DNA of 64,000 nt from assembly GCA_902615745.1 (NCBI GenBank), contig CACMQB010000006.1, positions 1 through 64,000 on the forward strand, in the 5' to 3' direction. This DNA comes from an uncultured Alphaproteobacteria bacterium (GTDB taxonomy: Bacteria; Pseudomonadota; Alphaproteobacteria; HIMB59; GCA-002718135). This document shows, piece after piece, positions 8,423-52,320 of this stretch; within the stretch, counting starts at the first letter, position 1, and each line of letters opens with the position of its first letter. The position numbers and the translations under genes are program-made. The notes beneath the pieces were generated by a model. The model saw nothing but the letters and a program-made list of their open reading frames with translations. It was not told the DNA's origin and did not search any database.

Positions 8423-9221
8423 ATTTTAGAGAAGGAATTTTTTTTCTTATTTTTTTAACATCAGAAATATTAATCGTTGAATTAAGAATTGAAGGTTTAT
8501 TTTTAGTACTATTTACAATGTTCCCCCATGGGTCTGCTACAAGAGAATATCCATAAGTCTTTCTATTCATATGATGATTCCCACACATACCTGTTGCTAC
8601 AATAAAAACATTATTCTCTATAGCTCGTGATCTATTCAAAACCTCCCAATGATCTTTTCCGGTTGGTCTAGTAAATGCAGCAGGAACTAAAATAATTGAA
8701 CAATCTTTTTTAGCAAGCTGCCTATACAAATTAGGAAATCGTAAATCATAACAAATTGTCATTCCTAATTTAATATTATTAATTTTTGTAAAAATTATTT
8801 TATTTCCTGCTTTAAATAAATATGATTCTAGATGTTTTTCATTATTATTAATTTTGACATCAAACATATGAATTTTATCATATGTTTTTTTTATCACTCC
8901 ATGATTATCAATAAAAAAAGATCTGTTAACTAGTTTGCGTTGTTTTTTTACTTTTAAGAGTAGAGAACCAAGATTTATATTAACCTTATTTTTTTTAGCA
9001 AAATTTTTTGCCATTTTTAAAACTGGGCATGTATTTTGATATGGGGCATTTAATAATAAAAAATTTTTATCATTAGTAATAATGTTGGAGCATTCTGGTG
9101 TGCAAATCAAATGAGGTTTAAATTTTAATATTTTTTTAAAATTTTGTTCTAAATTTTTTGCATTTAAATTTGCTATGTGACTAGCACTAAATTGAATTTG
9201 AGATATTTTAAGTTTAGCCAT
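8415..9221 (-). CDS. Nitrilase-superfamily amidohydrolase (Nit-like)
   Basis: 268 residues with the Glu-Lys-Cys catalytic triad of the carbon-nitrogen hydrolase fold: Glu43 in CTPECS, Lys116 in KTYDKIHMFDV and Cys157 in TICYDLRFP. The YDKIHMFDV and RFPNLYRQLA stretches are typical of the Nit1/Nit2 branch, whose characterised members remove the amide of deaminated glutathione or of 2-oxo-amides. That makes a metabolite-repair role likely. It overlaps the MFS gene by 1 bp and the methyltransferase by 8 bp. It is cytoplasmic, with no signal peptide. Confidence 0.85.
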   Translation of the reverse strand: MAKLKISQIQFSASHIANLNAKNLEQNFKKILKFKPHLICTPECSNIITNDKNFLLLNAPYQNTCPVLKMAKNFAKKNKVNINLGSLLLKVKKQRKLVNRSFFIDNHGVIKKTYDKIHMFDVKINNNEKHLESYLFKAGNKIIFTKINNIKLGMTICYDLRFPNLYRQLAKKDCSIILVPAAFTRPTGKDHWEVLNRSRAIENNVFIVATGMCGNHHMNRKTYGYSLVADPWGNIVNSTKNKPSILNSTINISDVKKIRKKIPSLKYD

Positions 9222-10381
9222 TATTTATATTTAAACGAAAATATAACCGCACAAATAAATACTACAAATGTTAATAAATACATATTTAATGTTAATGAAT
9301 ATGTTTCAGCTAGAAAACCAATTCCAGCAGGTAAAATCATTGTAGAAGACAATCCAATTGTTATAAGATTAGTTACAGTCATTGGGATACTTTCATTGGA
9401 TTGTTTAACCGCTTGTCGAATTATTATAGGAACTAAATTTGCAATAGCAAATCCATAAATACATAGAACTCCTAGTATAATGTAGAAGTTATTTGTTAAT
9501 AAAGACAAAAACATTATAGCTGCGCCAATCATCACAAAGTGACAACCTACAACTTTTTCAGTGAATAAATTAATCAAAGAATTTGAAAATAAATTTGCAA
9601 AAATCCCTCCAATGCTAAAAAAGATTAATCCCATACTTGCTAAGTATAGAGGAGTATTTAAATCTTTTGATAACCATAATGTCGACCAATCCATAATTAT
9701 TCCACCTGATCCAAAAACAAAAAATAGCAAAAATCCAAATAAAAGTACATTCGTCTCTGGTAATTTAAATTTCTCACCTTCACCTTTAAAATCTAAATCT
9801 CGAGGTAATCCATAAGAATATACAAAAGAGGAAACTAAGATTGATAAAAAGGATAAGATCGTAAACGATATGTAAGGCTCATAATTATTTTTCATTATTA
9901 AACCTGCTAATCCCCCTCCAAGGAGAATTCCTAAATTAAATCCCATGGCATAATAAGGTGTAATAATTTTTTTAAAATGTCTTTCAATAAGTTGACTATG
10001 TATACCTCCAATTGGTCCAGAAGCACCCCATCCTATTCCACCAGATATAAAAGTTAATAAAAAATAAAAATATGATGAGGAAATAACAGTCAATAAGGCG
10101 GAAAATGTAACAATAGGAAAAGCTAAAGTCATAACTAATTTAGTTCCATATTTTGGGACTAATATTCTTCCAGAAATTTGATTAGAAATTATAAAAAAAA
10201 TACCAAAAAGTAATATTGCATAGCTTAAATCAGACTCGTCAATTGAAAGTCTTTCCATATTCCAAGGTGTTATTCCAAAATAACAACCCACGACTATCAT
10301 TGGATAGGTAGAGGTAATTACTGATGCAAGCGTAGCTCTTCTAAAAATTATATTTTCTTCTAACACAAAATTTTTTACCAA
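9221..10381 (-). CDS. MFS transporter
   Basis: 386 residues with about 12 membrane spans, a central hydrophilic loop (PRDLDFKGEGEKFKLPE) between two six-helix bundles and a glycine-rich fifth helix (SGGIGWGASGPIGG). It belongs to the major facilitator superfamily, resembling YbjJ-like permeases; the substrate is not identifiable. It sits between the aldo/keto reductase (7-bp overlap) and the nitrilase gene (1-bp overlap), so it is co-translated with the sugar operon. It could export a breakdown product or import a related compound. Confidence 0.85.
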   Translation of the reverse strand: MVKNFVLEENIIFRRATLASVITSTYPMIVVGCYFGITPWNMERLSIDESDLSYAILLFGIFFIISNQISGRILVPKYGTKLVMTLAFPIVTFSALLTVISSSYFYFLLTFISGGIGWGASGPIGGIHSQLIERHFKKIITPYYAMGFNLGILLGGGLAGLIMKNNYEPYISFTILSFLSILVSSFVYSYGLPRDLDFKGEGEKFKLPETNVLLFGFLLFFVFGSGGIIMDWSTLWLSKDLNTPLYLASMGLIFFSIGGIFANLFSNSLINLFTEKVVGCHFVMIGAAIMFLSLLTNNFYIILGVLCIYGFAIANLVPIIIRQAVKQSNESIPMTVTNLITIGLSSTMILPAGIGFLAETYSLTLNMYLLTFVVFICAVIFSFKYK

Positions 10382-11358
10382 CGATGATGCACATCATCAA
10401 AAAAGTACTCTGTGTAAATATTACTGATTTTATCCATCAAAGAAGAAATTTCGTTAATATTTGAAGAAGAAGTATTTAAATTCACATGATCTTTATTTTT
10501 AGCGCCAGGAATAACAACACTAACTGCATCATGCATCAAAATCCATCTTAGTGATAATTGTGACAAAGTTATATCAGTTGGCAAAATATTTTTTAAATCT
10601 TCAACTGCATCTAATGCTTTATTAAAGTTAACACCTGAAAATGTTTCTCCAACATCAAATGCATCACCATTGATATTATAATTTCTATGATCATCAGGAG
10701 CAAAAGAAGAATCTTTTGAGAACTTACCTGTTAACAAACCACTTGCAAGAGGCACCCTGACTATAATTGCCACTTTTTTTTCTTTTGCTATTTCAAATAA
10801 TTTTTCAGCAGGTTTTTGTCTAAAAATATTAAAAATAACTTGTATCGATTTTGTATTTGGACGTTTGATGCAAGCTAAAGCTTCATCAACTGTTTGAACA
10901 CTAAATCCGTAATGTTGAATTTTTCCTTTACTCACTAAATGATCTAACATGTCAAATGTATGATCAGATGAATATACTTCGGTTGGAGGACAATGCATTT
11001 GTAATAGATCAATTGTTTCAACATTAAGATTTGATAAAGATTGGTCTATATAAGACTCCATTAATTCCTTATTATAGTATCCCTCGGCCACATGAGGATT
11101 GATTTGTCTTCCAGCTTTTGTTGCCACATAAATTCTTTCAGATACTGATTTAATGAATTCACCTACAAATTTTTCACTTCTACCCATGCCATAGACATCA
11201 GCAGTATCAAAAAAATTAACACCATTTTCAAATGATGATTTTAATACTTCTTTAGCTTTATCTTCACGAACTTCTCCCCAATCTGCTCCAATTTGCCAGC
11301 AACCTAATCCAATTTCGGATACGTTCCAATCTAATGATCCAAATTTTCTATATTTCAT
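10375..11358 (-). CDS. Aldo/keto reductase
   Basis: 327 residues forming a single TIM barrel. The catalytic tetrad is visible: Asp in FFDTADVYG with Tyr four residues on, Lys in YVATKAG and His in LLQMHCPP. The N-terminal GSLDWNVSEIGLGCWQIG and C-terminal VVIPGAKNKDHVN (NADP-binding) are standard, and the general look is of the IolS/YghZ-like group. The enzyme interconverts a sugar carbonyl and alcohol with NADP(H). It lies 2 bp downstream of the fourth ADP-ribosylglycohydrolase gene, and I infer it acts on the sugar that those enzymes release. Confidence 0.9.
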   Translation of the reverse strand: MKYRKFGSLDWNVSEIGLGCWQIGADWGEVREDKAKEVLKSSFENGVNFFDTADVYGMGRSEKFVGEFIKSVSERIYVATKAGRQINPHVAEGYYNKELMESYIDQSLSNLNVETIDLLQMHCPPTEVYSSDHTFDMLDHLVSKGKIQHYGFSVQTVDEALACIKRPNTKSIQVIFNIFRQKPAEKLFEIAKEKKVAIIVRVPLASGLLTGKFSKDSSFAPDDHRNYNINGDAFDVGETFSGVNFNKALDAVEDLKNILPTDITLSQLSLRWILMHDAVSVVIPGAKNKDHVNLNTSSSNINEISSLMDKISNIYTEYFFDDVHHRW

Positions 11359-11360: not shown

Positions 11361-13520
11361 TTATCCTACAACTATTTCATCAGTGACTAATGTACCATCC
11401 TCAACAATCAATCCCATAGCTCCTGAGTCAAGAAGATTATTTTTATCTTCATATTCTAAAACTAATTTATTTTCTAAATATGCAGAAAGAACATTATCTT
11501 TAATTTTAAGAGATAATTTATAATTTTTAAAATATTCTAAATTAAAATCCATTTCTTTTAAAACTTTTACTTCATTTACCACTTTTATTAATTGAAGTTT
11601 GTTTGAAGAATTAATTACCAGTCCATAGTATCTATTTAAACCTTGTACTCTTACAGCAAGGCCGCCGGTAGTTAGTCTTTGCACTGCTATATCTGCACTA
11701 ACAGTATAGTTTTTCCAAGCTTCATTACCCGTAATGATAATCCCTCTCCCACTATCTTTTGTTATTCTAAATGTTCTTGCACCTACTTCCCATTTATCAA
11801 CAGCATTTACCCAACTTGATTTCCACATAACAGCTTTTGATGTTTTCACACCCCGTTTATGTTCTCCAATATGTTTTGGTTTATAAAATGAACAATCTGG
11901 TTCTCCAGTAAATGTTAGATAGTTTATTAATAAGCTGCCAGAATTTGCTTCTTCAGATTCAATAGAAAATCCAACTTGAGTAATTGGATTTCCCTCAGTT
12001 GAAGGAATTTTCCATTTTAAGTTATGTGATTTACCTGGATACAAAATTATTTCCTCTGAATTAATTCTTTCATATTCATCATCTTTCCCAAACATATTTA
12101 TGAAACATTTAACATTGATTGGTTTATCTGAACTTGTAACAAAATTAATTTCAGATTCAATTGTTTGACCAGAATATAATAATGGAGATGAAATAAAATT
12201 ATAACTTTGAAAAAATCTCTCTCTAGCTTTCCCCGTTAATTCGTGTAACTCTTGAGGAAAAAATACATCTACCAATGCTTCAGAGAAGACACCGGGCGCT
12301 ACTCTATCAAATTTAATCTCAAGGGCTCTTTTTCCAATTTTACTATCATATTTTATATTTTGTACATGAGTGGAAATGTTCTTATTTTCTTTATAGTTTG
12401 CTCTCCACCCTTGAACTGAACCAGGCATTTCAAAATGAAATCTAGATCCATTTTTAGGCTGAACAATTTCCTCATTGTTCATTCTTTTTGCAGTATTAAT
12501 TACTTTATAAGCTTCAGTTAATGCGTCTGTCTGTGTTTCGCCACCATTTGCCGTAGGGCAATACATTCTATCTTGGATTGGAGAAAGATAATCTGGGCCA
12601 TTATTTAATCCCTCAAGTCCATTTTTAATTCCCATCAGGCAACCAACATTTCCTGAGTTACAATCTGTATCTCGACCTGCAGTATTAACAATCATTAATG
12701 TTTTTTGAAGATCATCATCCCCAAATAATAATGATAGAATTATAATAGCATGGTTAGGTATCATGTGACACTCACCTAAATATTTATCATAATCATAGTT
12801 TTCAGCTAAAAATTCTCTTGCTTGCATCCAGTCACTATTACCTGATCGTATATTTTGTAATTCTCCAATTACTTTGTAAATCTCAGATGTATTTGGAATA
12901 TATTTCTTACTTTCATTAATAATTTTATTAATATCTTTTTCGATAAAAGCTAAAGACTCCATAGCGGCTACCATTTGTGCTCCGTAAATTGCTTCGCCAT
13001 CATGACTTACACTTGCAGCTTTTTTTGCAAGATCAGCAGCTTTTTCTGGATCTCCTGGTGATACTAAAGCCCATCCATCAATAAATATTTGAGCTCCTAT
13101 TTGTTGTGCAACAACTTCTCCATTGGTTTCAATCGAACCACTCATTGGGGCGTGAATGCCTGCCTTAAGGTTTTGGAATGCAGTGTCCTCAGCTGAATGA
13201 CCTCTACCTCCCCACCACAATACAGTTTTATTTTCTATAAGATTATTTAACCAACTTTGACCAATTTGTTTTGGCGTAATATTAGGATCATAATTATTTT
13301 CTCTTAAAGCTCTTAAAAAAGTAAAGGTACCAGTAATATCATCATCAGTTACTACTAATGGAACATTTAATTTCTCATTTACATAGTAATTAATCTCACC
13401 TAACTCTTCTAATATTCTTTCATGAGTCCATTGTTCAAAAGGACGTCCTAGATAAACACCAATTAACTTGCCAAGTACCCCTGCATATACTTTTTCTTCA
13501 TACACTTTATCTAGTTTCAT
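11361..13520 (-). CDS. ADP-ribosylglycohydrolase-family protein, tandem copy 4 (most divergent)
   Basis: 719 residues, no signal peptide, so cytoplasmic. Residues 1-330 form an ADP-ribosylglycohydrolase (ARH/DraG) domain. The first metal motif is TDDDITGTF (58-66), a middle motif SHDGEAIYGAQ is at 172-182, and the second metal motif is GRDTDCNSGN (282-291). About 345-580 is a beta-rich region I do not recognise, and about 590-719 is a concanavalin-like sugar-binding domain (WKNYTVSADI ... GGLAVRVQGLNRYYGLVI). Compared with the other three copies it has Arg rather than Trp before the DTD motif and WWGGRGHSAEDTA at 102-114. All metal aspartates are kept, so it should be active. The substrate is unknown; family members cleave ribosyl N- or O-glycosidic bonds. 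Confidence 0.85.
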   Translation of the reverse strand: MKLDKVYEEKVYAGVLGKLIGVYLGRPFEQWTHERILEELGEINYYVNEKLNVPLVVTDDDITGTFTFLRALRENNYDPNITPKQIGQSWLNNLIENKTVLWWGGRGHSAEDTAFQNLKAGIHAPMSGSIETNGEVVAQQIGAQIFIDGWALVSPGDPEKAADLAKKAASVSHDGEAIYGAQMVAAMESLAFIEKDINKIINESKKYIPNTSEIYKVIGELQNIRSGNSDWMQAREFLAENYDYDKYLGECHMIPNHAIIILSLLFGDDDLQKTLMIVNTAGRDTDCNSGNVGCLMGIKNGLEGLNNGPDYLSPIQDRMYCPTANGGETQTDALTEAYKVINTAKRMNNEEIVQPKNGSRFHFEMPGSVQGWRANYKENKNISTHVQNIKYDSKIGKRALEIKFDRVAPGVFSEALVDVFFPQELHELTGKARERFFQSYNFISSPLLYSGQTIESEINFVTSSDKPINVKCFINMFGKDDEYERINSEEIILYPGKSHNLKWKIPSTEGNPITQVGFSIESEEANSGSLLINYLTFTGEPDCSFYKPKHIGEHKRGVKTSKAVMWKSSWVNAVDKWEVGARTFRITKDSGRGIIITGNEAWKNYTVSADIAVQRLTTGGLAVRVQGLNRYYGLVINSSNKLQLIKVVNEVKVLKEMDFNLEYFKNYKLSLKIKDNVLSAYLENKLVLEYEDKNNLLDSGAMGLIVEDGTLVTDEIVVG

Positions 13521-13544
13521 TATTTCTCCCCTTTTTTTATAAAT

Positions 13545-15707
13545 TTATTCTATAGATATTGAATTACTTTGAATTGCTCCATTTTCAGTTAAAAATCCCA
13601 TCATACCTTCCTCAAATGGATTAGATGAATCTTCTGCTTCAATTAGTAATTGATTATCAACATAACCTTGAAGTTTATTGCCATCTACTTTAAATTTTAA
13701 ATCATATTCTTTAAAATATTCTAAATTAAAATCTATTTCATTAAGTGTTTTTAATTCATATTCCATTTTATTAATCTTAAGTTTATTTTCAGATGTTAAC
13801 TCAAGAGAATAATATCTTTTTAAACCTTGAGACCTAACAATTAATCCAGCGGCAGATGCAAGAGGAATAGATATCTTTGAAGAAATTGTATAATCTTTCC
13901 ATGTCTCACTCCCAGTCATTATGTGACCACGACCTATACCCCTTACTACTTTAAATGATTCATTATGTCGGTATTGCCATTTATCTACATCATTGACCCA
14001 AGCTCTTTTCCATAATTGACCGTAAACCTCCTCTTTATAAAATATGCCTCTTTTATATTCATCTATGTGGTCAGGTCTTCTAAAAGTCATTTTTGGAGTT
14101 CCAGAGATATTTAAATAATTAATTAAAATTTTTCCTGAAACATTATCATCAGAATTAATACTAATACCTATCTGTCCTATTGGATTTGCAAAAGTATCAG
14201 GAACAACCCATTCAATTGTATTATTTTCTTTACTCCTTAAATTAAAATCATCAGAGGATAATTTGATTAATTTATCTTCTTCTCCCCAATATTTAATAAA
14301 TAAATTAATTCGCAAATCTTTTTCAGATTGAGATATAATTTCTGTTTTGATATTTTGTCCAGAATATACAATAGGACAAGCGACATAATCATAATGAAAA
14401 TATCTTTGAACTTGATAGCCTTCTAATTTTGTAAACCATTCTGGAAAAAAACTATCTACAAAAATTTCACTTGCAAGACCAAATGATAGATCATTAAAAC
14501 TGACTTGTAACGCTCTCGTTCCATTATCTGATTTATAATCAACATTAGATAAGCTTGTATTTAGATTGTTATCATTTGATTTATCAACCATCCATCCTTG
14601 TGTAGATGTTTCCATTTCAAAATTATATCTCGCATTATTTTTGATAACCTTGCTTTCAAGACCATTCATTTTTCTTGTTATATTAATAATGTTCTGACTT
14701 TCCAATAAAGCATCAGTCATTGTTTCAGAACCATATGCTGTTGGTAAATAAATGATATCATTTACAGGAGTTATATAGTCTGGACCCTGTTTAATTCCTT
14801 CTAATCCATTTTTTATTCCTAAGATACAACCAACATTACCTGAGTTACAATCTGTATCCCATCCTGCTGTATTGACGATCATTAAGGATTTTTGAAAATC
14901 ATCATCTCCGAATAACAACGATAATATAATTAGTGCGTGATTAGGAACGATATGACAATTACCTGGAAATTTACTATACCCATACTTATCTTCAATCTTG
15001 GATCTAGCTTGTTCCCAATCTAAATTACCAGAGCTCCAATCTTGGATATCAGAAATCAATTTATAAATTGTTGAATCATTTGGAACAAATTTTTTACTGT
15101 CCTCTATTATTTTTTTTATATCTTTTTCTATGAATGCATAGGCTTCCATAGCAGCAACAACTTGAGCACCGTAAACAGATTCACCGTCATGACTAACACT
15201 CCCTGCTCTTTTTGCTAGATCAACAGCTTGTTCTGGATCACCTGGAGAAACCATTCCCCAGCCATCAATAAATATTTGCGCTCCGATTTGTTCCGCAATT
15301 ACTTTACCATTTTTAGCAATGGAACCACTTTCAGGTGCGTGAATACCTTGTTTAAGATTCATGTATGCGCTTTCTTCAGTTAAAATTCCTTTTCCTGCCC
15401 ACGCAAGTACAGTTTGATTTTCTAAACAATAATTTAACCAGGTTTGTCCAATTTGTTTAGGCGAAATATTTTTATCAAAATTAAAATGTTTAAGAGCATT
15501 TATAAACCTAAAAGTACCTGTTAGATCATCATCTGTGACATGTATTGGAAAATCAAGTTTATCATTTACATAATAATTAATTGGACCAAGTTCTTCCATG
15601 ATCCTGTCATAATACCAACCTTCAAATGGTCTACCTAAATAAACACCAATAATTTTTCCTAAGACACCAGCATAAACTTTTTCTTCAAATACTTTATCTA
15701 AATTCAT
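13545..15707 (-). CDS. ADP-ribosylglycohydrolase-family protein, tandem copy 3
   Basis: 720 residues with the same three-part layout as its neighbours: ARH domain with VTDDDLTGTF (57-66), SHDGESVYGAQ and GWDTDCNSGN, a middle beta-rich part, and a C-terminal sugar-binding-like domain with WKDYTISSKI and LIVRSQGLKRYYSLEL. The active-site-side loop reads AWAGKGILTEESA, shared with copy 2 but not with copies 1 and 4. It is separated from the next gene by a 24-bp gap holding a ribosome-binding site. No frame disruption is seen and both aspartate motifs are intact, so it is likely a functional paralogue with its own specificity rather than a decaying duplicate. Confidence 0.85.
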   Translation of the reverse strand: MNLDKVFEEKVYAGVLGKIIGVYLGRPFEGWYYDRIMEELGPINYYVNDKLDFPIHVTDDDLTGTFRFINALKHFNFDKNISPKQIGQTWLNYCLENQTVLAWAGKGILTEESAYMNLKQGIHAPESGSIAKNGKVIAEQIGAQIFIDGWGMVSPGDPEQAVDLAKRAGSVSHDGESVYGAQVVAAMEAYAFIEKDIKKIIEDSKKFVPNDSTIYKLISDIQDWSSGNLDWEQARSKIEDKYGYSKFPGNCHIVPNHALIILSLLFGDDDFQKSLMIVNTAGWDTDCNSGNVGCILGIKNGLEGIKQGPDYITPVNDIIYLPTAYGSETMTDALLESQNIINITRKMNGLESKVIKNNARYNFEMETSTQGWMVDKSNDNNLNTSLSNVDYKSDNGTRALQVSFNDLSFGLASEIFVDSFFPEWFTKLEGYQVQRYFHYDYVACPIVYSGQNIKTEIISQSEKDLRINLFIKYWGEEDKLIKLSSDDFNLRSKENNTIEWVVPDTFANPIGQIGISINSDDNVSGKILINYLNISGTPKMTFRRPDHIDEYKRGIFYKEEVYGQLWKRAWVNDVDKWQYRHNESFKVVRGIGRGHIMTGSETWKDYTISSKISIPLASAAGLIVRSQGLKRYYSLELTSENKLKINKMEYELKTLNEIDFNLEYFKEYDLKFKVDGNKLQGYVDNQLLIEAEDSSNPFEEGMMGFLTENGAIQSNSISIE

Positions 15708-15733
15708 TTTCCTCCCTCCAAATGAATATTATC

Positions 15734-17938
15734 TCAATTTATAGAAATTTCATCACTAATAATAGTTCCATTTTCAACAATACAGCCTATCATACCTTTT
15801 TCAAATTGATTTGATTTATCTTCTACCTCAATTAACAATTCATTATTAATAAAGCCTTTTAAAAAATTATTATCAGCCTCAAAACGCATAAAGTATTCCT
15901 CAAATGGCTCAAAAGCAAAATCTACTTCTTTTAATATTTTTAGACCATATTCCATTTTATTAATCTGTAATTTATTTGTTGATTTAATTTCTAATGAATA
16001 ATACCTCTGCAAACCCTGAGATCGAATTACCAATCCTCCAGATGATGCTAAACGAAACATTATTTTTGAAGTTACCGAATAATTTTTCCAATCAGAGGAT
16101 CCTGTAAATACATGCCCTCTTGATGTATTTTTGATTAACCCAAATGAATTTTTTCCATAACTATACCATTTATCTACATCATTCACCCAAGCCAATTTCC
16201 ATAACTGACCATAATATTTTTCATCATCTGGAATATAAACACCATTTGTTAAAGATTTAATATTATGACTTGTCGTATTTACTTTGTCGTTTTTAATATG
16301 CTCAGGTTTTTTAAAAGTCATCTTAGGTATTCCAGAAATATCAATATAATTTATTAATATTTTACCTGATACTTGTTCATCAGATGCAATACTATATCCA
16401 AGTTGAGTAATGGGATTTGATAATGTATCTGGAATAGTCCATTCTATTTTTTTTGTTTCATTTTCTGAGAAGTAAAATTCCTCCGAATCTAATTTAAATA
16501 ACTTATCTCCTTCACCATAATACTTAATAAATAATTTAATTTTTATATTTTTTTTCGTCTTCGATATAATTTCTGTTTTAATTTTTTGACCTGAGTAAAC
16601 TGTAGGACAACCAACAAAACTGTAAACCATAAGCATCATTTCTTGTTGCTCATTCAATCTTGTAAATTCTTCTGGGAAAAATGTATTCACATATAATTCA
16701 CTATTAATTCCTTTTGTAAGATTGTTAAAATTTATCTCTAAAGCTCTTTTGCCTATAGCAGAGATATGTTCACAGTTTTTTAAAAAAGTATTTTGATTAT
16801 TATTATTTGATTTATCAATCATCCATCCTTGCGTAGATGTTTCCATTTCAAAATTATATCGAGCATTGTTTTTAATTGATTGATGTTCAAGGCCATCTAA
16901 TTTTCTTCTAATATTAATTATATTCTGGCTTTCAGTTAATGCATCAGTCATAGTTTCTGAACCACGAGCAGATGTAATATATAAAGTGTCATTAACAGGT
17001 GTAATAAAATCTGCACCTTTTTGAATGCCCTCTAGACCATTTTTAATACCCATATAACAGCCAACATTTCCTGAGTTACAATCTGTATCCCACCCTGCTG
17101 TATTAACAATCATTAACGTTTTTTGAAAATCATCATCTCCAAATAAAAGAGCTAGAATTATCAAAGCATGATTTGGCACAATATGACAAAATCCTTGGTA
17201 TTTGTCATACCCATAGTGTTCTTCAATTTTGAATCTAGCTTGTTCCCAATCTAAATTACCAGAACTCCAATCTTGAATATCTGAAATTAATTTATAAATC
17301 ACAGAATTCTTAGGAATGTAACTTTTACAATGCTCAATTATTTTTTTTGTATCACTTTCAATAAAAGCCATTGCTTCCATAGAAGCAACCATTTGAGCGC
17401 CATAAACAGACTCACCATCATGACTAACACTCCCTGCTCTTTTTGCTAAATCAGATGCAAAGTCTGGATCACCTGCCGCAATCATTCCCCAACCATCAAT
17501 AAATATTTGTGCACCAATTTGCTCTGCAATAATTTTACCATTCCTTTTAATTGATCCACTCTCTGGGGCTTCAATACCTTCTTTTAAATTTAAATACGCA
17601 CTCTCTTCTGTCAATAATCCCTTTCCAGCCCATGCTAAAACAGCCTGATTTTCTAAACAATAATTTAACCACGTATCACCAATTTGCTTTGAAGTTATAT
17701 TTCGATTAAAATTAAAGTCTTTAAAAGCTTTAATAAAAGTAAAAGTACCATTGAGATCATCATCCGTAACATGAAGAGGTAAATTTAATTTGTCGTTTAC
17801 GTAATAATAAATAGGCCCAAGTTCCTTCATTATTTTATCATAGGGCCAACCCTCAAATGGTCTTCCTAAATAAACTCCAATAATTTTTCCTAAGACACCA
17901 GCATAAACTTTTTTTTCAAAATTATTATCTAATTTCAT
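15734..17938 (-). CDS. ADP-ribosylglycohydrolase-family protein, tandem copy 2
   Basis: 734 residues, the longest copy. The extra length comes from an insertion (HIKNDKVNTTSHNIKSLTNG and following) just before the C-terminal sugar-binding-like domain. The first metal motif reads TDDDLNGTF, with Asn replacing the Thr found in the other copies; the three aspartates remain. The second motif GWDTDCNSGN is intact. The loop AWAGKGLLTEESA groups it with copy 3. It is cytoplasmic, 12 bp after copy 1 and 26 bp before copy 3. The Thr-to-Asn change next to the metal site may alter specificity; this is inference only. Confidence 0.85.
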   Translation of the reverse strand: MKLDNNFEKKVYAGVLGKIIGVYLGRPFEGWPYDKIMKELGPIYYYVNDKLNLPLHVTDDDLNGTFTFIKAFKDFNFNRNITSKQIGDTWLNYCLENQAVLAWAGKGLLTEESAYLNLKEGIEAPESGSIKRNGKIIAEQIGAQIFIDGWGMIAAGDPDFASDLAKRAGSVSHDGESVYGAQMVASMEAMAFIESDTKKIIEHCKSYIPKNSVIYKLISDIQDWSSGNLDWEQARFKIEEHYGYDKYQGFCHIVPNHALIILALLFGDDDFQKTLMIVNTAGWDTDCNSGNVGCYMGIKNGLEGIQKGADFITPVNDTLYITSARGSETMTDALTESQNIINIRRKLDGLEHQSIKNNARYNFEMETSTQGWMIDKSNNNNQNTFLKNCEHISAIGKRALEINFNNLTKGINSELYVNTFFPEEFTRLNEQQEMMLMVYSFVGCPTVYSGQKIKTEIISKTKKNIKIKLFIKYYGEGDKLFKLDSEEFYFSENETKKIEWTIPDTLSNPITQLGYSIASDEQVSGKILINYIDISGIPKMTFKKPEHIKNDKVNTTSHNIKSLTNGVYIPDDEKYYGQLWKLAWVNDVDKWYSYGKNSFGLIKNTSRGHVFTGSSDWKNYSVTSKIMFRLASSGGLVIRSQGLQRYYSLEIKSTNKLQINKMEYGLKILKEVDFAFEPFEEYFMRFEADNNFLKGFINNELLIEVEDKSNQFEKGMIGCIVENGTIISDEISIN

Positions 17939-17950
17939 ACTCTTATACTT

Positions 17951-20116
17951 TTACTCTATGCTTATTGAATTGGATGATAATGTTCCATCTTGTGTAACAA
18001 AACCTATCATACCTGTTTCAAAAGAATTATCTTTGTCATGTGTTTCAATTAATAGCTTATCATCTACATAACCTAATAATTTATTTCCATTCACTTCAAA
18101 TTTTAATTCATATTCCTTATAAAACTCAAAATTAAAATCAATTTCTTTTAATGTTTCTATTTCATAAAACATTTTATTAATCTGCAGTTTATTATTGGAA
18201 GTAAGTTCTAAAGAGTAATATCGCTTTACTCCTTGAGATCTAATTATTAATCCCCCAGCTGATGCTAATGGAAAGTTCACTTTTGAAGTAACGGTGTAAT
18301 CTTTCCAAGAAGATGATCCTTGTAAAATATGGCCTCTACCAACTCCATTTATAATTTTAAATGATTCTAACCACCTATATTGCCACTTATCGATATCATT
18401 TACCCATGCTCTTTTCCATAATTGACCATAAAATTCTTGGTTAAAAAAATATCCATTTTTTGATGCATTTTCTATGTGTTCAGGTCTTTTAAATGTAACT
18501 TTTGGTGTACCCGTAATATCAAGAAAATTAATTAGTAATTTTCCTGAAGTGTTAACATCTGCTGATATGACAAATCCAATTTGTCCAATTGGATTTGCAT
18601 GTGTTTCTGGAACTATCCATTCAATTGATTTTACTTCATTATTTGAAAGCTCATATTCTTCAGCATCTATTTGTTTTAATTTATCTTCTTCACCCCAATA
18701 TTTTATAAATAAAGTAACTTTAATATTATTTTTACTTTTTGAAATAATTTCAGTTTTAATCTTTTGTCCACTATAGACAATTGGACATCCAACAAAGTCA
18801 TAGTGAAAAAATTTCTGCCGCTGAGAGTCTTTTAGTTCAGTAAACCAATCTGGAAAAAATGTATCAACATAGGCAACACTTGAATGCCCTATTGATAAAT
18901 TAGAAAAGTCAATTTCTAATGCTCTTTCACCAATCTTGGTTTCATAAGGAACATTAGTAATTGTAGTATTTAAATTATTATCATTAGTCTTATTAATTTT
19001 CCAAGCTTGAGTAGAGCCTGGCATTTCAAAATTATATCTTGCATTTTCTTTTACTATCTTGTTTTCCAAACCATTAATTCGTCTAGCAATATTAACAATA
19101 TTTTGACTTTCTCTTAATGCGTCAGTCATCGTTTCAGCACCATTACTTGTTGGAAGAAAAATTGTATCATTAACTGGTGTAATATAGTCGGGTCCGTCTT
19201 TAATACTCTCTAATCCATTTTTAATTCCAAGAAAACACCCGACATTTCCCGAATTACAATCTGTGTCCCAACCTGAAGTATTTACAATCATTAAAGATTT
19301 TTGAAAGTTATCATCTCCAAATAGTAATGCTAAAATAATTAATGCATGATTTGGTACAATATGAACACCGCCAATAAATTTTTCATAACCATAAATATCA
19401 TCTATTTTTTCTCTTGCTTGTTCCCAGTCTAAATTACCAGAACTCCAATCTTGAATATCAGATATAAGTTTAAAAATTGTTGAATCTTTTGGGATATATC
19501 TTTTGCAATGCTCAATAATTTTTTTTGTATCTTTTTCTATAAACGCCATTGCTTCCATTGCAGCAACAACTTGAGCGGCATAAACAGATTCACCATCATG
19601 ACTTACACTTCCAGCTTTTTTTGCAAAATCAGCTGCTTGATCTGGATCACCTGGCGAAACTAATCCCCATCCATCAATAAAAATTTGAGCACCTATTTGC
19701 TCTGCAACAATTCGACCATTTGTTTTTATAGAACCACTATCTGGCGCGTGAATACCTTGTTTAAGATTTTGATAAGCGGTATCTTCTGATGATGTTCCTT
19801 TACCACCCCACCATAAAACAGCTTGGTTTTCCAAACAATAATTTAACCAAGTTTGTCCAATTTGTTTAGAAGAAATATTCTTATCAAAATTAAAATCTTT
19901 TAGAGCATTTATGAATCTAAAAGTTCCAGTCAAATCATCATCTGTGATTTGAACAGGCATATTTAATTTATCATTTACATAATAATTAATTGGGCCTAAT
20001 TCTTTTATAATTCTATCATACCACCAACCCTCAAAAGGTCTGCCAAGATAGACGCCTATGATTTTACCTAAAACTCCTGAATAAACTTTCTCCTCATATT
20101 CTTTGTTAAGTTCCAT
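17951..20116 (-). CDS. ADP-ribosylglycohydrolase-family protein, tandem copy 1 (operon-proximal)
   Basis: 721 residues. The ARH domain carries QITDDDLTGTF, SHDGESVYAAQ and SGWDTDCNSGN. The C-terminal sugar-binding-like domain has WKDYTVTSKV and LIIRSQGVKRYYSLEL. It is nearest to copy 3 over most of its length (for example KRAWVND-DKWQYR), but its loop WWGGKGTSSEDTA resembles copy 4, so recombination between copies or separate selection on this loop is possible. It is the first enzyme gene after the two permeases, only 15 bp from them, which ties it directly to the imported substrate. Confidence 0.85.
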   Translation of the reverse strand: MELNKEYEEKVYSGVLGKIIGVYLGRPFEGWWYDRIIKELGPINYYVNDKLNMPVQITDDDLTGTFRFINALKDFNFDKNISSKQIGQTWLNYCLENQAVLWWGGKGTSSEDTAYQNLKQGIHAPDSGSIKTNGRIVAEQIGAQIFIDGWGLVSPGDPDQAADFAKKAGSVSHDGESVYAAQVVAAMEAMAFIEKDTKKIIEHCKRYIPKDSTIFKLISDIQDWSSGNLDWEQAREKIDDIYGYEKFIGGVHIVPNHALIILALLFGDDNFQKSLMIVNTSGWDTDCNSGNVGCFLGIKNGLESIKDGPDYITPVNDTIFLPTSNGAETMTDALRESQNIVNIARRINGLENKIVKENARYNFEMPGSTQAWKINKTNDNNLNTTITNVPYETKIGERALEIDFSNLSIGHSSVAYVDTFFPDWFTELKDSQRQKFFHYDFVGCPIVYSGQKIKTEIISKSKNNIKVTLFIKYWGEEDKLKQIDAEEYELSNNEVKSIEWIVPETHANPIGQIGFVISADVNTSGKLLINFLDITGTPKVTFKRPEHIENASKNGYFFNQEFYGQLWKRAWVNDIDKWQYRWLESFKIINGVGRGHILQGSSSWKDYTVTSKVNFPLASAGGLIIRSQGVKRYYSLELTSNNKLQINKMFYEIETLKEIDFNFEFYKEYELKFEVNGNKLLGYVDDKLLIETHDKDNSFETGMIGFVTQDGTLSSNSISIE

Positions 20117-20131: not shown

Positions 20132-20974
20132 CTAACCTTTTGTAGCACCACTGGTTAAACCAGCAATGAATCGTCTTTGAAAAAACATAAATAAAATAGC
20201 AATTGGTGCCGCCATTAAAATAGACGCCGCACTCACCAATCCATAATCATTTGCAAATCTACTTTGAAATGTAAATAAAATTGACGAAATAGGTTTGTAC
20301 TCATCAGTAATAATAAAAGTAATAGCAAATAAAAACTCATTCCAAACTGTTAATGACACAATAAGTGCTGTTGTTAAAAAAACTGGCCAAGATAAAGGTA
20401 GGGCAACTCTTGTAAACAATTGCATTACAGATGCCCCATCTAGTTTAGCGGCTTCAAAAAGTTCTGTAGGTAATTGCAACATGTAAGAGCGAATTAAGAA
20501 AGTTGCAAAAGGGGCATTTAAGGCGCTATAAATAATAACTAAACCAATCCTTGTATCTAGGAGGTATAAACTTTTCCACATTAAAAATAATGGTAAAATA
20601 AATAATTGAGCAGGAATACTTATTCCAACTAAAAGGTATAAGCCAACAACAATTGTTTGAATTCCTCTTGGATTTAAAACTGCCAAACTGAATGCAGCTA
20701 AACCTGAAACAGTCAAATTTAATATCAATGTTCCGATAACCAAAGTAAGTGAATTCATAAATATTTGAGTATAATTTCCATTCACCCAAGCATCATAATA
20801 ATTCATTAATCTTATTTCATTTGGAAAACCTAATGGATTTGCTCCAAATTCAGAAGATGGTTTTATAGAATTAAAAGCTAAAACTAGTAATGGCAAAATA
20901 ATTGTTAAAGCCATAAAAATCAAAATGGCGTGATTAATATAGCTTGATCTTTGTCTAAATCTTGCAGTTGCCAT
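20132..20974 (-). CDS. Carbohydrate ABC transporter permease (MalG type)
   Basis: 280 residues, six membrane spans, and the cytoplasmic EAA loop EAAKLDGASVMQLFTRVALP (about 189-208) that contacts the ATPase. The ending FIAGLTSGATKG is the usual MalG-family C-terminus, and the N-terminus has the RQRSSYINHAILIFMAL first span. It follows the MalF-type permease by 8 bp and precedes ADP-ribosylglycohydrolase copy 1 by 15 bp. No ATPase gene lies in this operon. The substrate is inferred to be the glycoside processed by the ARH enzymes. Confidence 0.93.
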   Translation of the reverse strand: MATARFRQRSSYINHAILIFMALTIILPLLVLAFNSIKPSSEFGANPLGFPNEIRLMNYYDAWVNGNYTQIFMNSLTLVIGTLILNLTVSGLAAFSLAVLNPRGIQTIVVGLYLLVGISIPAQLFILPLFLMWKSLYLLDTRIGLVIIYSALNAPFATFLIRSYMLQLPTELFEAAKLDGASVMQLFTRVALPLSWPVFLTTALIVSLTVWNEFLFAITFIITDEYKPISSILFTFQSRFANDYGLVSAASILMAAPIAILFMFFQRRFIAGLTSGATKG

Positions 20975-20982: not shown

Positions 20983-21861
20983 TTATACCTCCCAACCCAT
21001 CCGCCTCAAAATTGCAAAGAAACCAACTATAATACCGACATAGAAGAACATCATGACACCTATAGTAGACGCGTAACCAACATTCATTCGTTGAAAGGCT
21101 TGAGAATACAGATGATTTGCTACAACTTCAGAACTATATGCTGGCCCACCCATTGTTAAAATATATACATAGTCAAAAGTTGGGACAGACCAGATGATTA
21201 TAATTATTAAAGATAAAACAAAAATTGGTCGTATCATTGGTAAAGTAATGTATCTAAATTTTTGAAATTTTGTTGCTCCTTCAATATCTGCTGCCTCATA
21301 AAGAGAGTCATCCACTTGATACATTCCAGTTAAATAAATAATAACTAAGAAGCCCCAAAAATGCCACATATCTACCCAGGCAACAGCGTATAAAGCAGTC
21401 TCCTTCATTGCAAAAGGTGACTTAGCAAGAAAATCAATACCTTGATTCTCAAACCAACCCCCTAAGCCATGTCTTGGATGGAATATGTATCTCCAAATCA
21501 AACAGTTAACGATACTGGCTAGAATGTATGGAAAAAAATACACTAGCCTATAAAAAAGTTGTCCTCTTTTTATTCCAGTTAAAAGATATGCTATAATAAG
21601 TGCTACGATTACTGGTATTGTTAAGAACATTACTGTCCAAATTATGTTGTGTTTAACTGCTTTCTTGAAAACACGGTCTCTAAATAATTCTTGAAAGTTT
21701 TCTAATCCAACGTAGTTTATTCTGCCGAAACCATTCCAGTCCGTTAAACATAACAATAAACTTAGTATCGATGGGAATGCTACCACAAAAAAATGTATAA
21801 ATATAACTGGAAATAAAAAGTACCAGGAAATTGCATTTATACTTGTTAAAAATTTTGGCAT
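20983..21861 (-). CDS. Carbohydrate ABC transporter permease (MalF type)
   Basis: 292 residues, six spans, with the EAA loop EAADIEGATKFQKFRYITLP (about 199-218). It starts MPKFLTSINAISWYFLFPV and is the partner of the MalG-type permease just downstream. A perfect hairpin (21877-21903) separates it from the binding-protein gene upstream, so its expression is probably lower than that of the binding protein. Nothing else is unusual. Confidence 0.93.
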   Translation of the reverse strand: MPKFLTSINAISWYFLFPVIFIHFFVVAFPSILSLLLCLTDWNGFGRINYVGLENFQELFRDRVFKKAVKHNIIWTVMFLTIPVIVALIIAYLLTGIKRGQLFYRLVYFFPYILASIVNCLIWRYIFHPRHGLGGWFENQGIDFLAKSPFAMKETALYAVAWVDMWHFWGFLVIIYLTGMYQVDDSLYEAADIEGATKFQKFRYITLPMIRPIFVLSLIIIIIWSVPTFDYVYILTMGGPAYSSEVVANHLYSQAFQRMNVGYASTIGVMMFFYVGIIVGFFAILRRMGWEV

Positions 21862-21915: not shown

Positions 21916-23241
21916 TTATCTTTTTCCAACTGGAACTAATGCATCGTCTGCACGAGCTTGATCCCAAAGTCTTTGAGATTCCTCCATGAATTCAAGTGGA
22001 GTAATATCTCCAGCCCAAACAACTTCCATATCTTTCCAAATATGTACACCTGGGTCATTCGGATAGAACGTCCATGTTGTATATCCATAGTTTCCAGAAT
22101 CAGAAGCTTCTGCGAATTCAGTTAAGAATCTTTTTTGTCTTGGATCAATATTAGGATCAAAGTCAGCATCAGTGTATTTTAGTGGTAACAACCAAGCGCC
22201 ATAACCTAAACTGCCAGTAACTTTAAGAGCTCTTTCTTTATCAGAAAGAATCCAATCAATTACTTTTGCAGCTCCATCAGCATTTTTAGATGCTGCATTA
22301 ATGGACATAGTTCCACCTGTTGCAAGTTGGTAATTAGGAGCACTTCCTGCCTGTGAATTCAGAATCGGTAAAGGATTCCAATCCCAATCATCAGAAGTTT
22401 CTCCAAAATTTGTTGCCGTTACATTGAAACCCCAAGTTCCAATCATGAGCATCGCAGAACCTCTAGTAGCAAACTCGTTATTAAAATCATCCCAATCTAA
22501 AGAATAATATGTCTCTAAATCCCCAGACCAATAACCTTCATCTACCATGTGTTTTCTTAAAAGTTCAATTGCTTCTACAAACTCTGGATCAGTCCACTTT
22601 TTTTCACCAATTAATGCTTTATAGACATTATCTGGTCCAGCATAAGTGTTGAAATAGTTACCTACTAAATGTTCGTGAGTTGGCTGCCATCCAGCAGAAC
22701 CATACGCATAAACATTCATTCCCTTAGCTTTTATTTTAGCAGCTAAAGATTCAACTTCTTCTAAATTATTTGGCGTACTCCATCCATTTTCTTCAAACAA
22801 AGTTTTATTATAAAAATAAATCATTGTTTCATAGTTTTTTGGAATTGAATATAATTCACCATCAAATACTCCTGAGTTGTAAGCCCAACCTAGAAGTTTG
22901 TCTTGCCAACCATATTGATCAGCATACTCTTGCATAGATTTAACAAGACCTGCATCTTGGTAAATTTTTATATAAGAAGCACCAGGTGTATCAAACATGT
23001 CCGGTCCACTTCCAGATAAAAGAGCTGGTCTGATAGTATCATTAATGTCTTCTTTAAATACACATTCTAATTCTACTTCATCTTGTTCAGCATTAAAAGC
23101 ATCACACATCATTTCTTGAACTGTAGGGTCAGTATCTGCACTACTTTCCATCCACCAAACTACTTTAGTGGCAGCAAATGTTGATGTTGCGAAAAAAGCT
23201 GTAAGAATAAAAGTTAAAAAAATATTTAAAATTTTATTCAT
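21916..23241 (-). CDS. Sugar ABC transporter substrate-binding protein
   Basis: A periplasmic family-1 solute-binding protein of about 441 residues. The N-terminus MNKILNIFLTFILTAFFATS is a signal peptide cleaved after TFA, and the mature part begins ATKVVWWMES. I start it at ATG 23241 because GGAGG at 23247-23251 (minus strand) is five bases upstream; in-frame ATGs at 23244 and 23253 sit on or before that site. The mature protein is rich in Trp and Tyr (WDDFN, DWDWNPLP), as in sugar-binding proteins. It heads the operon with MalF/MalG permeases and four ADP-ribosylglycohydrolase genes, so it should capture their precursor. Confidence 0.93.
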   Translation of the reverse strand: MNKILNIFLTFILTAFFATSTFAATKVVWWMESSADTDPTVQEMMCDAFNAEQDEVELECVFKEDINDTIRPALLSGSGPDMFDTPGASYIKIYQDAGLVKSMQEYADQYGWQDKLLGWAYNSGVFDGELYSIPKNYETMIYFYNKTLFEENGWSTPNNLEEVESLAAKIKAKGMNVYAYGSAGWQPTHEHLVGNYFNTYAGPDNVYKALIGEKKWTDPEFVEAIELLRKHMVDEGYWSGDLETYYSLDWDDFNNEFATRGSAMLMIGTWGFNVTATNFGETSDDWDWNPLPILNSQAGSAPNYQLATGGTMSINAASKNADGAAKVIDWILSDKERALKVTGSLGYGAWLLPLKYTDADFDPNIDPRQKRFLTEFAEASDSGNYGYTTWTFYPNDPGVHIWKDMEVVWAGDITPLEFMEESQRLWDQARADDALVPVGKR

Positions 23242-23550
23242 CATTTCCTCCATTTATAAGAAATTTATACTATAAATAGAAAGACTGTAAATCTATTTAT
23301 GTAATATTTTGATCCAAAAAAACGAGGAAAATTAGGAATTGCGACAAAAAATTAATCTAAAGCATAAAAATCATTTGATCCCTAATTAAACTTAAAAAAT
23401 AGTTAAAAGAAAAATAAAAAATAACTATTAAAAAAATTGCTATTAAAGACCAGATTATAAATTTTATCATTTTATAGTTTTTATAAATTAAATAATGTTT
23501 AAGAGTAGTATTAATATATTATAAATTATTATTATATTCTAATCATAATT
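23242..23550. other. Divergent intergenic region (about 310 bp)
   Basis: This gap separates the binding-protein operon (minus) from the HpcH/HpaI aldolase (plus) and must hold both promoters. It is extremely AT-rich. A TATAAATTATTATTATATT stretch before 23551 could supply the aldolase -10 element. I see no convincing operator palindrome. A 37-codon minus-strand ORF (23357-23470, MIKFIIWSLIAIFLIVIFYF then a polar end) could encode a tiny membrane peptide but has no clear ribosome-binding site and may be chance in T-rich sequence. Confidence 0.5.
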
Positions 23551-24339
23551 ATGAAAAACAAATTATTTGATATTTGGAAAAAAAATAAAGCATCTATAAA
23601 TGCGTGGCTTTCTATACCTAATTCTTTTACAGCAGAAGCCTTTGGTAAAATGGGTTGGGATTCAGTAACTATCGATATGCAGCATGGCCAAAATGATTAT
23701 TCTACTGCTATTTCAATGGTTCAAGGATTAACAAATAGTGATACTGTTCCTATGACAAGAGTACCATGGAACGAGCCAGGTATTATTATGAAAATGTTAG
23801 ATTTAGGTATTCAAGGAATTATTGCGCCAATGATAAATACAAAAGAAGACTGTGAAAAGTTTGTTTCATATTGTTATTATCCTCCAATAGGTCAAAGAAG
23901 TTTTGGTCCAATGAGGGCTCAGGTAGTTTATGGTTCAGATTACTATCAACATGCAAATGATAATATTGTAAGTTTGGCAATGATAGAAACAAAACAAGCA
24001 GTAGAAAATTTAGATGCCATTCTTTCAGTTCCAAACTTAACTGGTATCTATATTGGACCTGCGGATATGAGTTCTTCTTATGGTTTACCACCTAAATTTG
24101 ATGTTCGTGAAGATCCCGTATTTTCAAATATAAAAATGATTGCAAAAAAAGCTAAAGAAAAAGGAAAGATTGCGGGTATTCATAATGGATCAGTTAAGTA
24201 TATGAAAGAAATGATGGAGTACGGTTTTCAATTTACCACCTTACTTTCTGATTTTAGAATGATGACATCACATGCTGAAAGTTTATTAAAAGAATTGAAA
24301 GATGTAGATACTAAATCTGATAATACTAGCGCTTATTAA
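23551..24339 (+). CDS. HpcH/HpaI-family aldolase
   Basis: 262 residues, class II pyruvate-type aldolase of the HpcH/HpaI family. The catalytic His45 (IDMQHGQ), phosphate/pyruvate-binding Arg70 (TRVPW), and metal ligands Glu146 (MIETKQA) and Asp172 (GPADMS) are all present. Such enzymes reversibly split 2-keto-3-deoxy acids to pyruvate and an aldehyde. It diverges from the ARH/sugar transporter operon, so I infer it cleaves a 2-keto-3-deoxy sugar acid made from the imported sugar. It converges with uup, leaving only 7 bp between them. Confidence 0.9.
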   Translation: MKNKLFDIWKKNKASINAWLSIPNSFTAEAFGKMGWDSVTIDMQHGQNDYSTAISMVQGLTNSDTVPMTRVPWNEPGIIMKMLDLGIQGIIAPMINTKEDCEKFVSYCYYPPIGQRSFGPMRAQVVYGSDYYQHANDNIVSLAMIETKQAVENLDAILSVPNLTGIYIGPADMSSSYGLPPKFDVREDPVFSNIKMIAKKAKEKGKIAGIHNGSVKYMKEMMEYGFQFTTLLSDFRMMTSHAESLLKELKDVDTKSDNTSAY

Positions 24340-27779: not shown

Positions 27780-27976
27780 ATAAATTATAATTTAAATTAA
27801 ATATTATTTTATAATCATTCTAAATTTAATTTATAACTAAATCATAATAATTCTTTATTTTTTAGAGCTTTCTTGGAATAAAATACATCAAAAATATTAT
27901 TAAAAAAAAATATTTTTAATCTCTATGTAATAAACCCATAATAACCATCATATTGCAACTAACAAAGGAGGTAAAT

Positions 27977-28591
27977 ATGTTTGCAACATGGAAAATAAGA
28001 ACTGACTACGCAAATGCTGTAGATATTTTTGATAAAGTTTCGCCCTGGTTTAAAGAAAGTGGAGCTCGAATGACTAATGTTACGCATAATATTGGTGGTG
28101 ATGATAATACTTTTACTATCGTAGCAGGATTTGAGAGTTATGAAGCATTTGGAAAAAATGATGATGCTTGGGCTTCATCTCCAGAATGGTGGCAAAAAAT
28201 GCAGCCTAATTTTGTAAACAATCAATTAGTTGAAGCTGTTTATTTGACTGAATTGATTGGAAATATTAAAGGTGCTACTGAGCAAATGCCTGTTTGGGCA
28301 CATTTTGTTTTTAGTCATCCAGATGTGGATGCTATAAAAAAAAGTTTTGAAATTGATGAAAAACACTACATGTCAAATGGTGCATCAGGAATTGCAATTC
28401 ATAGAATGTTTGGTGATAGAAATAATCAATATTTATTTGCTGCAAGATTTAACAGTATGCAAGAATTAGGTAAGTGCATGGATGCTAGCCAAAATTCTCC
28501 AGATTATTGGGCAAGCCATAAAGATTATTATGCAAACTTAAATATTCATCTCAATTATAATTCTAGAGTAATTAGAAGAGATATTTATTAA
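27977..28591 (+). CDS. Uncharacterised protein with two alpha/beta-barrel-like repeats (tandem copy 1)
   Basis: About 204 residues from ATG 27977, chosen because AAAGGAGG stands five bases upstream; an earlier in-frame start at 27953 would include that site. I do not recognise a named family. The protein looks like two related halves: a first beginning FATWKIRTDYANA with AGFESYEAFGKNDDAWASSP, and a second beginning WAHFVFSHPDVDA with ARFNSMQELGKCMDASQNSP. This suggests a duplicated dimeric alpha/beta-barrel (ferredoxin-like) domain, as in EthD, NIPSNAP or GYD proteins. It is soluble and cytoplasmic. The next gene is a clear paralogue and both have unusually strong ribosome-binding sites, so high expression is likely. 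Confidence 0.7.
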   Translation: MFATWKIRTDYANAVDIFDKVSPWFKESGARMTNVTHNIGGDDNTFTIVAGFESYEAFGKNDDAWASSPEWWQKMQPNFVNNQLVEAVYLTELIGNIKGATEQMPVWAHFVFSHPDVDAIKKSFEIDEKHYMSNGASGIAIHRMFGDRNNQYLFAARFNSMQELGKCMDASQNSPDYWASHKDYYANLNIHLNYNSRVIRRDIY

Positions 28592-28603: not shown

Positions 28604-29230
28604 ATGATGATTGTAGCATGGAAATATAGAACAAACTTTGAAAATGCTTATGATTCTTTTGGAAAGATTTCTAAATTTCATAAAGATGCAGGAGCAGATT
28701 GGATTAATATGTTCATTACAACAGGTGCAGATAATGGATCTTTTATAACTGCAGTAGGCTTTGAAAATATGAAAGCATATGGAAAAATGGATGATATGTG
28801 GAATGCCCCAGATAGTGAAATGGATAAAATTATGGCAAATAATTTAAGTGATACCCATTTAATTGAAACATATAATCTAAATTTGATGGTTGGTAATATA
28901 GAAGCTGATCAATCACCTGAAGTTTTTTCAAATTTTATTTTTGAATGCGATGATGTTCAAGCTGTAAGAGATAGTCACGAAATTGATTGGAAATATTACA
29001 AAGAAGGTGGTTGTACAGGAATAGACATACATCGAATGAGTGGAGGTGATTATGCATCTAATAATACATTCATGTTTTGCGCCAGGTTTAAATCAATGGA
29101 AGACTTAGGAGCTAATCAGGATAAAATGGGAGAAAGTTCTTATGGCAAAGATCTTGCAGGCTATCATTCAAAAATTAAAATTATAAAAAATTTTAATGGT
29201 AGAAGTTTAAAATTTGAGAGGTTTAAATAA
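28604..29230 (+). CDS. Uncharacterised protein with two alpha/beta-barrel-like repeats (tandem copy 2)
   Basis: 208 residues, paralogous to the gene 12 bp upstream: MIVAWKYRTNFENAYDSFGK aligns with MFATWKIRTDYANAVDIFDK, and CARFKSMEDLGANQDKM aligns with AARFNSMQELGKCMDAS. It starts ATG-ATG at 28604 and 28607; the second fits the alignment with copy 1 and has better spacing from GGAGG (28595-28599). Function unknown. The neighbours (two GSTs, an HCCA isomerase-like protein, a GYD protein) suggest handling of reactive or aromatic metabolites, which is only inference. A strong terminator follows at 29326. Confidence 0.7.
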   Translation: MMIVAWKYRTNFENAYDSFGKISKFHKDAGADWINMFITTGADNGSFITAVGFENMKAYGKMDDMWNAPDSEMDKIMANNLSDTHLIETYNLNLMVGNIEADQSPEVFSNFIFECDDVQAVRDSHEIDWKYYKEGGCTGIDIHRMSGGDYASNNTFMFCARFKSMEDLGANQDKMGESSYGKDLAGYHSKIKIIKNFNGRSLKFERFK

Positions 29231-45087: not shown

Positions 45088-45168
45088 TTGACATTTACAA
45101 GTTATTTTTGTTAAGCTTTATTATTATTATTTAATATTAATGTTAAAAATAAATCCGTGGGAGGAAAT

Positions 45169-46164: not shown

Positions 46165-46174
46165 GTAAATATAT

Positions 46175-46200: not shown

Positions 46201-46211
46201 TTTCAAATTAT

Positions 46212-52309: not shown

Positions 52310-52320
52310 CTACCTCCTTA

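Follow-up and report, generated by a model that had tools for sequence, protein, structure and literature searches.

Work on enzymes of the ADP-ribosylglycohydrolase (ARH) fold has, to our knowledge, dealt nearly always with their part in removing ADP-ribosylation; the bonds on which the characterised ones act are ribosyl bonds. The rus ribose-utilisation locus of Bacteroides thetaiotaomicron reportedly couples an ARH-family enzyme, a nucleosidase and ribokinases to the uptake of ribose-containing nutrients. In E. coli, the operon yegT-yegU-yegV encodes a nucleoside-type transporter of the major facilitator superfamily (MFS), an ARH protein and a PfkB sugar kinase, and its function is still unknown (PMC10819704). 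Here, we describe four tandem ARH genes that follow the genes of a sugar importer in a 64,000-nucleotide stretch of contig CACMQB010000006.1 (referred to below as the window), which comes from an uncultured alphaproteobacterium of the order HIMB59 (AEGEAN-169). The two-family structure and genome sizes of this order have been described (PMC10734472; PMC10308909), and they would place the present genome in the GCA-002718135-type family. None of the papers searched dealt with ARH genes in AEGEAN-169/HIMB59, and the paper on AEGEAN-169 genomes is silent on them (PMC10308909). The encoded proteins, referred to below as ARH-CBM66, belong to a widespread, uncharacterised family, for which we propose a role in the catabolism of imported glycosides.

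Domain structure and metal site of ARH-CBM66 proteins

A first-pass annotation, made from the DNA letters, had listed at positions 11361-20116 four consecutive full-length ARH genes of 719-734 codons, whose products would combine an ARH domain, a β-rich middle part and a concanavalin-like, sugar-binding C-terminal domain. The array was upheld by its open reading frames, by matches to the Pfam family PF03747 and by motifs. All four products matched PF03747 with 155-172 bits (gathering cut-off 26.2 bits; E 1e-45 to 1e-50) from profile position 2 to positions 284-286 of 287, and all four carry TDDD and DTDCNSGN motifs. A profile search of the whole assembly (1.48 Mb in 34 contigs, 88.5% complete) retrieved only these four PF03747 genes.

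The domain plan was confirmed by an AlphaFold2 model that was made for copy 4 (numbering as in Table 1) with 40 relatives (predicted local distance difference test, pLDDT, 91.7; predicted TM score, pTM, 0.92). The model consists of an ARH domain (residues 1-345), a β-sandwich (~380-545) and a concanavalin-type domain (~565-721). The ARH domain is an all-alpha fold, for which Foldseek returned structures 1t5j, 6g1q and 2woc with TM scores on the target (TMt) of 0.71-0.73; among solved structures, MJ1187 gave a TMt of 0.72, DraG 0.73 and the ARH3 complexes ~0.7. The last ~155 residues have the CBM66 fold (4b1m, TMt 0.84, root mean square deviation 1.7 Å, 24% identity), so the sugar-binding fold expected at the C-terminus was recovered. 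Structure 4b1m is the CBM66 of a levanase, which binds terminal fructose. CBM66 was found independently by a sequence profile (E 5.5e-5), and copy 1 matched the related GALC lectin domain of Pfam (Glyco_hydro_59_C, 27.5 bits).

Residues E29, D59, D60, D284, D286 and H173 are invariant in 121 sequences, the four copies included, bar two unresolved X, while T58 varies among other family members. By sequence correspondence, the first five are the metal site of ARH3 (E41, D77, D78, D314 and D316 in ARH3 numbering), and H173 is the equivalent of ARH3 His182. The metal residues are thus intact in every copy rather than lost from all of them. The position of ARH3 T317, also a metal ligand, is occupied by Cys287 in all 121 sequences, where ADP-ribosyl hydrolases have Thr or Ser after DTD. 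The region aligned to ARH3 GSYGNGGAMR reads SGSIxxNGxxxAEQIG, the alignment here being approximate, and the motif is unrecognisable. In ARH3, the GSYGNG-AMR stretch binds the diphosphate of ADP-ribose. By inspection, ARH-CBM66 proteins start without an evident signal peptide (MxLDKxYEEKVYAGVLGK), unlike the solute-binding protein encoded at the start of the operon, and the enzymes are therefore likely to be cytoplasmic.

Importer and kinase genes beside ARH-CBM66 genes

In the window, the solute-binding protein (SBP), MalF, MalG, the four ARH proteins, an aldo/keto reductase and an MFS transporter are encoded in an unbroken run on the minus strand. The position downstream of the sugar-binding protein and MalFG given at first pass was therefore correct, and the run continues beyond the array into the last two genes. 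Intergenic gaps from the SBP to the reductase gene are 54, 8, 15, 12, 26, 24 and 2 bp, and such short gaps are consistent with a single transcript. A promoter scan was uninformative, with 90 hits against 88.5 in shuffled sequences and so no excess. An SBP with two permeases in one operon agrees with a CUT1 importer of the ATP-binding cassette (ABC) type. The array operon contains no MalK-type ATPase gene; five are present elsewhere in the genome, one of them at window positions 54549-55679. Nor does the operon contain a PfkB kinase gene. The solved structures nearest to the SBP are xylobiose/xylo-oligosaccharide and chito-oligosaccharide binders, matches that are generic to the fold, and a ligand assignment from the structure search was set aside since only generic CUT1 binders were matched. 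Almost every operon of the genus includes the aldo/keto reductase gene, which those of SAR116 and Rhodobacteraceae lack.

Scanning 84,980 genomes (incomplete, one per species) with an alignment of the four copies retrieved at least 395 relatives, of which the best-scoring 78 loci were kept. The closest named relatives are single-cell genomes of uncultured marine Alphaproteobacteria. Full-length members with 41-49% identity occur in SAR116, Rhodobacteraceae, Chloroflexota, Thermomicrobiota, Deinococcota, Abditibacteriota and Myxococcota, among others. MalF/MalG genes lie at most three genes upstream of the ARH gene in 28 of the 43 outside loci with usable upstream sequence. With 27 of 27 complete operons of the genus also linked to the importer, the transporter association noted at first pass holds in most relatives. 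The order SBP-MalF-MalG-ARH is kept in the genus, SAR116, Rhodobacteraceae, Chloroflexota, Thermomicrobiota and Deinococcota, and MalG-ARH was also seen on one Myxococcota contig. A LacI-type regulator gene often precedes the transporter genes; the one regulator tested had RbsR/CcpA as its best matches.

PfkB kinase genes were located within two genes of ARH in 12 of the 43 outside loci. Three of the kinases (loci L077, L079 and L102) exceed the 299.65-bit cut-off of the ribokinase profile TIGR02152, with 373, 347 and 335 bits. Nine kinase loci look like one closely related group. Since the counts are thus not independent, we count two or three separate kinase associations. No fructokinase beside ARH passed its cut-off among the copies checked, and no ADP-ribosyltransferase gene was seen adjoining the ARH genes. 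The Chloroflexota kinase gene is followed by hisD/hisC/hisB, and histidine genes also lie near the window locus; these were taken as unrelated neighbours. A phage or viral origin was rejected, as viral contigs contained no relative and viral fold matches were limited to the C-terminal lectin-like part or to generic ARH.

Two further arrangements were seen outside the genus. Beside a Chloroflexota importer-ARH operon, a LacI-type DNA-binding domain is fused to an ARH domain (L071:2850-4460, minus strand), an arrangement in which the ARH fold apparently senses the ligand for a regulator. In five loci, a single-domain second ARH directly precedes ARH-CBM66 (L067:8783-9931, L069:252-1394, L086:6383-7525, L095:8765-9895 and L100:8852-9997), and its second Asp motif reads GRDNDS or GRDCDS instead of the usual DTD.

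Descent, selection and exchange of the four-copy array

The number of copies differs within the genus: among 27 complete operons, 12 have one copy, six have two and nine have four, and several incomplete genomes had no detected ARH copy. The four-copy array reported at first pass is thus present and is not a fixed trait. Thirty outside genomes, searched whole, each contained one full-match copy; two of them hold a second member (36% identity) elsewhere. In the tree, copy 1 forms the deepest branch and copies 2, 3 and 4 arose later, within the genus; the paralogue clades are old, separate and conserved across species. The other copies are 53-71% identical in amino acid sequence to copy 4. An assembly artefact or recent amplification was ruled out, because identity between the copies reaches only 60-81% in the longest repeat segments of the DNA; identical four-copy order in other single-cell genomes also argues against an artefact. 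In one relative (L054), the genes of a single ARH, the reductase and the MFS transporter are kept, and those of SBP-MalF-MalG are missing.

Ratios of nonsynonymous to synonymous substitution rates (dN/dS) between orthologues across species are 0.045-0.099 per copy, with the lowest values, 0.02-0.05, in the ARH domain. Strong purifying selection acts on all four copies, and decayed copies or pseudogenes are ruled out by these values (0.05-0.10) and by the intact metal residues. Copies 2 and 3 share substitutions W102A, G104A, S109L, H112E and T113S (copy 4 numbering) at positions fixed outside the genus. Segment 101-114 of these copies holds more such changes than the remainder of the domain would predict (Fisher p 0.004 and 0.002). 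These p-values are only indicative, as the segment was picked after viewing the alignment and the shared ancestry of the two copies makes this one event. Contacts of this variable loop were deduced from the correspondence with other ARH sequences. Copy 1 has W283R immediately before the DTD metal motif. The first-pass annotation had assigned each paralogue its own leaving group; selection on all four agrees with this, but clear concentrated change is seen in copies 2 and 3 alone and is common to both.

Importer alleles and array types (two or four copies) reassort independently among single-cell genomes, making the locus a local recombination hot spot. In loci L028 and L032, SBP-MalF-MalG DNA is ~84% identical to that of the window and the four ARH genes are ~98% identical; in L039 and L045, the SBP gene is ~99% identical, yet it is followed by a two-copy array at 78-83%. 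Since either array can stand behind either importer allele, the extra copies would extend the processing of a shared set of imported substrates, with no importer dedicated to each copy.

Table 1. Genes of the importer-ARH operon, with window coordinates
Feature	Position	Strand	Evidence and remarks
CUT1-type SBP, first gene of the operon	21916..23253	-	Signal-peptide-like N-terminus; PF01547 E 4.5e-25
MalF-like permease	20983..21861	-	PF00528 above cut-off
MalG-like permease	20132..20974	-	PF00528 E 2.9e-17
ARH-CBM66 copy 4, 721 aa	17951..20116	-	Adjoins MalG; PF03747 157 bits; AlphaFold2 model; CBM66 and ARH3/MJ1187 folds
ARH-CBM66 copy 3, 734 aa	15734..17938	-	PF03747 155 bits; dN/dS 0.10
ARH-CBM66 copy 2, 720 aa	13545..15707	-	PF03747 169 bits; dN/dS 0.045
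ARH-CBM66 copy 1, 719 aa	11361..13520	-	PF03747 172 bits; Glyco_hydro_59_C 27.5 bits; dN/dS 0.048
Aldo/keto reductase, IolS-like	10375..11358	-	2 bp past copy 1; PF00248 E 3.2e-62
MFS transporter	9221..10381	-	7 bp overlap with reductase; PF07690 E 1.8e-19

Divergent from the operon, an HpcH/HpaI-type aldolase is encoded at 23551-24339 (plus strand), which is kept adjacent across the genus. The window also contains two further ABC importer operons (45157-47932 and 50999-55679), of CUT2-like monosaccharide type and of CUT1 type with its own MalK, as well as tandem genes of similar ~210-aa proteins (27953-28591 and 28604-29230), of which only the first matches DUF6854.

Proposed function and comparison with known systems

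It is probable that ARH-CBM66 proteins serve glycoside catabolism of some kind. For the more specific proposal that they hydrolyse imported furanosyl, most likely ribosyl, glycosides in the cytoplasm, with paralogues widening the range accepted, we put the chances at about even. The proposal is favoured by the partners of the enzymes: an oligosaccharide-type importer, a regulator of the sugar-responsive type and a kinase of the ribokinase family, the last of these outside Proteobacteria. In this pathway, SBP-MalF-MalG, together with a MalK-type ATPase encoded elsewhere, would import a small glycoside or oligosaccharide that contains a furanosyl unit; the CBM66-like module would grip the terminal furanose, and the two-metal ARH site would hydrolyse the glycosidic bond to release a free sugar, most likely D-ribose. 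An RbsD/FucU-like mutarotase and a ribokinase of the same genome could then yield ribose 5-phosphate; the genome does encode a ribokinase (312 bits in TIGR02152) beside an RbsD/FucU-like gene and deoC. Tandem duplication in the marine lineage would have widened the cleavable linkages or aglycones. We infer the hydrolytic activity, the furanose or ribose identity and the roles of CBM66 and of the paralogues from this context.

Several points weigh against the ribosyl proposal. The transporter was not seen upstream in 15 of the 43 outside loci; ribokinase adjacency is limited to three loci, none in Proteobacteria; and the commoner kinases (L081 type) are nearest to ribokinase and ribose-1-phosphate kinase, far below the cut-off. 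Ribokinase is also found in relatives without the array and is near-universal in the order, which makes its co-occurrence with the array in the genus uninformative. We know of no activity or ligand for any ARH-CBM66 member found, CBM66-type folds also bind other ligands, and the solved SBPs nearest to ours bind pyranosyl oligosaccharides, by matches generic to the fold. The last point, together with raffinose-type sugars among the ligands of the nearest SBPs, the levanase CBM66 match and a majority of PfkB kinases that are not ribokinases by score, would suit pyranosyl or fructofuranosyl substrates (sucrose-like glycosides, fructo-oligosaccharides or xylosides) with a fructokinase-like PfkB partner. 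We consider this doubtful, given the true ribokinases adjoining ARH in three loci, the lack of a qualifying fructokinase beside the copies checked and the ribosyl bonds cleaved by characterised ARH-fold enzymes.

The first-pass annotation had the array digest ribosylated or other glycosides. Kinase adjacency in other phyla, with ribokinase or other PfkB proteins, speaks for this, but ADP-ribose as a likely substrate is disfavoured because the diphosphate-binding motif is unrecognisable. That the enzymes are ADP-ribosyl hydrolases or NAD/nucleotide scavengers, with imported derivatives of ADP-ribose or ADP-ribosylated targets of the cell as substrates, is very unlikely in our view: Cys287 in place of T317, linkage to a CUT1 sugar importer rather than to nucleoside or NAD systems and the lack of an adjoining ADP-ribosyltransferase gene stand against it, even though the binuclear metal residues are intact, His173 is present and the fold matches ARH3-ADP-ribose complexes. 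It is also unlikely that the array is a dosage device, in which recombination shuffles four near-equivalent enzymes of one specificity without functional diversification. Copy numbers of one, two or four, whether the transporter alleles are shared or differ, and an identical metal site in all copies would fit such a device, but pure dosage predicts near-identical copies, while the observed ones are divergent, form old clades conserved across species and carry changes at loop positions that are fixed elsewhere.

Returning to the ribosyl proposal, we tentatively extend it: ARH-CBM66 may be an unrecognised family of metal-dependent cytoplasmic ribofuranosidases, and the array a set of diversified specificities behind one importer, exchanged between cells as a module and directed at an overlooked oceanic pool of dissolved ribosides. 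If true, a fold known for ADP-ribose signalling has been turned into a carbon-acquisition glycosidase. If a broadly distributed ARH subfamily is tied to sugar importers and ribokinases, nutrient acquisition joins the roles of the fold, and the subfamily may amount to a new family of glycoside hydrolases. A 9-kb array in abundant, streamlined marine bacteria implies a substrate worth its cost and offers a concrete way to assay what such cells consume. The repeated occurrence of the importer-enzyme pair in several phyla, in some cases beside a ribose kinase, suggests an unstudied route for eating ribose-type glycosides.

Among known systems, yegTUV resembles the ARH-CBM66 operons, taken with the kinase of Chloroflexota relatives, in combining a transporter, an ARH protein and a PfkB kinase. 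YegU, however, has 334 aa and consists of a single ARH domain, its profile resembles that of ARH-CBM66 only marginally (hhalign probability 6%), its transporter is of MFS and not ABC type, and the window operon has no kinase gene. The rus locus is said to differ in its SusCD/permease-type uptake, its single ARH and the absence of a CBM66-like domain. ARH3, DraG and MJ1187 share with ARH-CBM66 the fold (TM 0.70-0.74 on targets) and the Glu, TDD and DTD residues of the metal site; ARH-CBM66 differs in lacking a recognisable diphosphate motif, in Cys at the T317 equivalent, in two extra C-terminal domains and in its sugar-importer context. Finally, the B. subtilis levanase CBM66 and the GALC lectin domain share the fold of the C-terminal domain (TM 0.84, 24% identity), but there the module is part of a secreted GH32 levanase or a lysosomal GH59 enzyme, whereas here it would belong to a cytoplasmic ARH enzyme.

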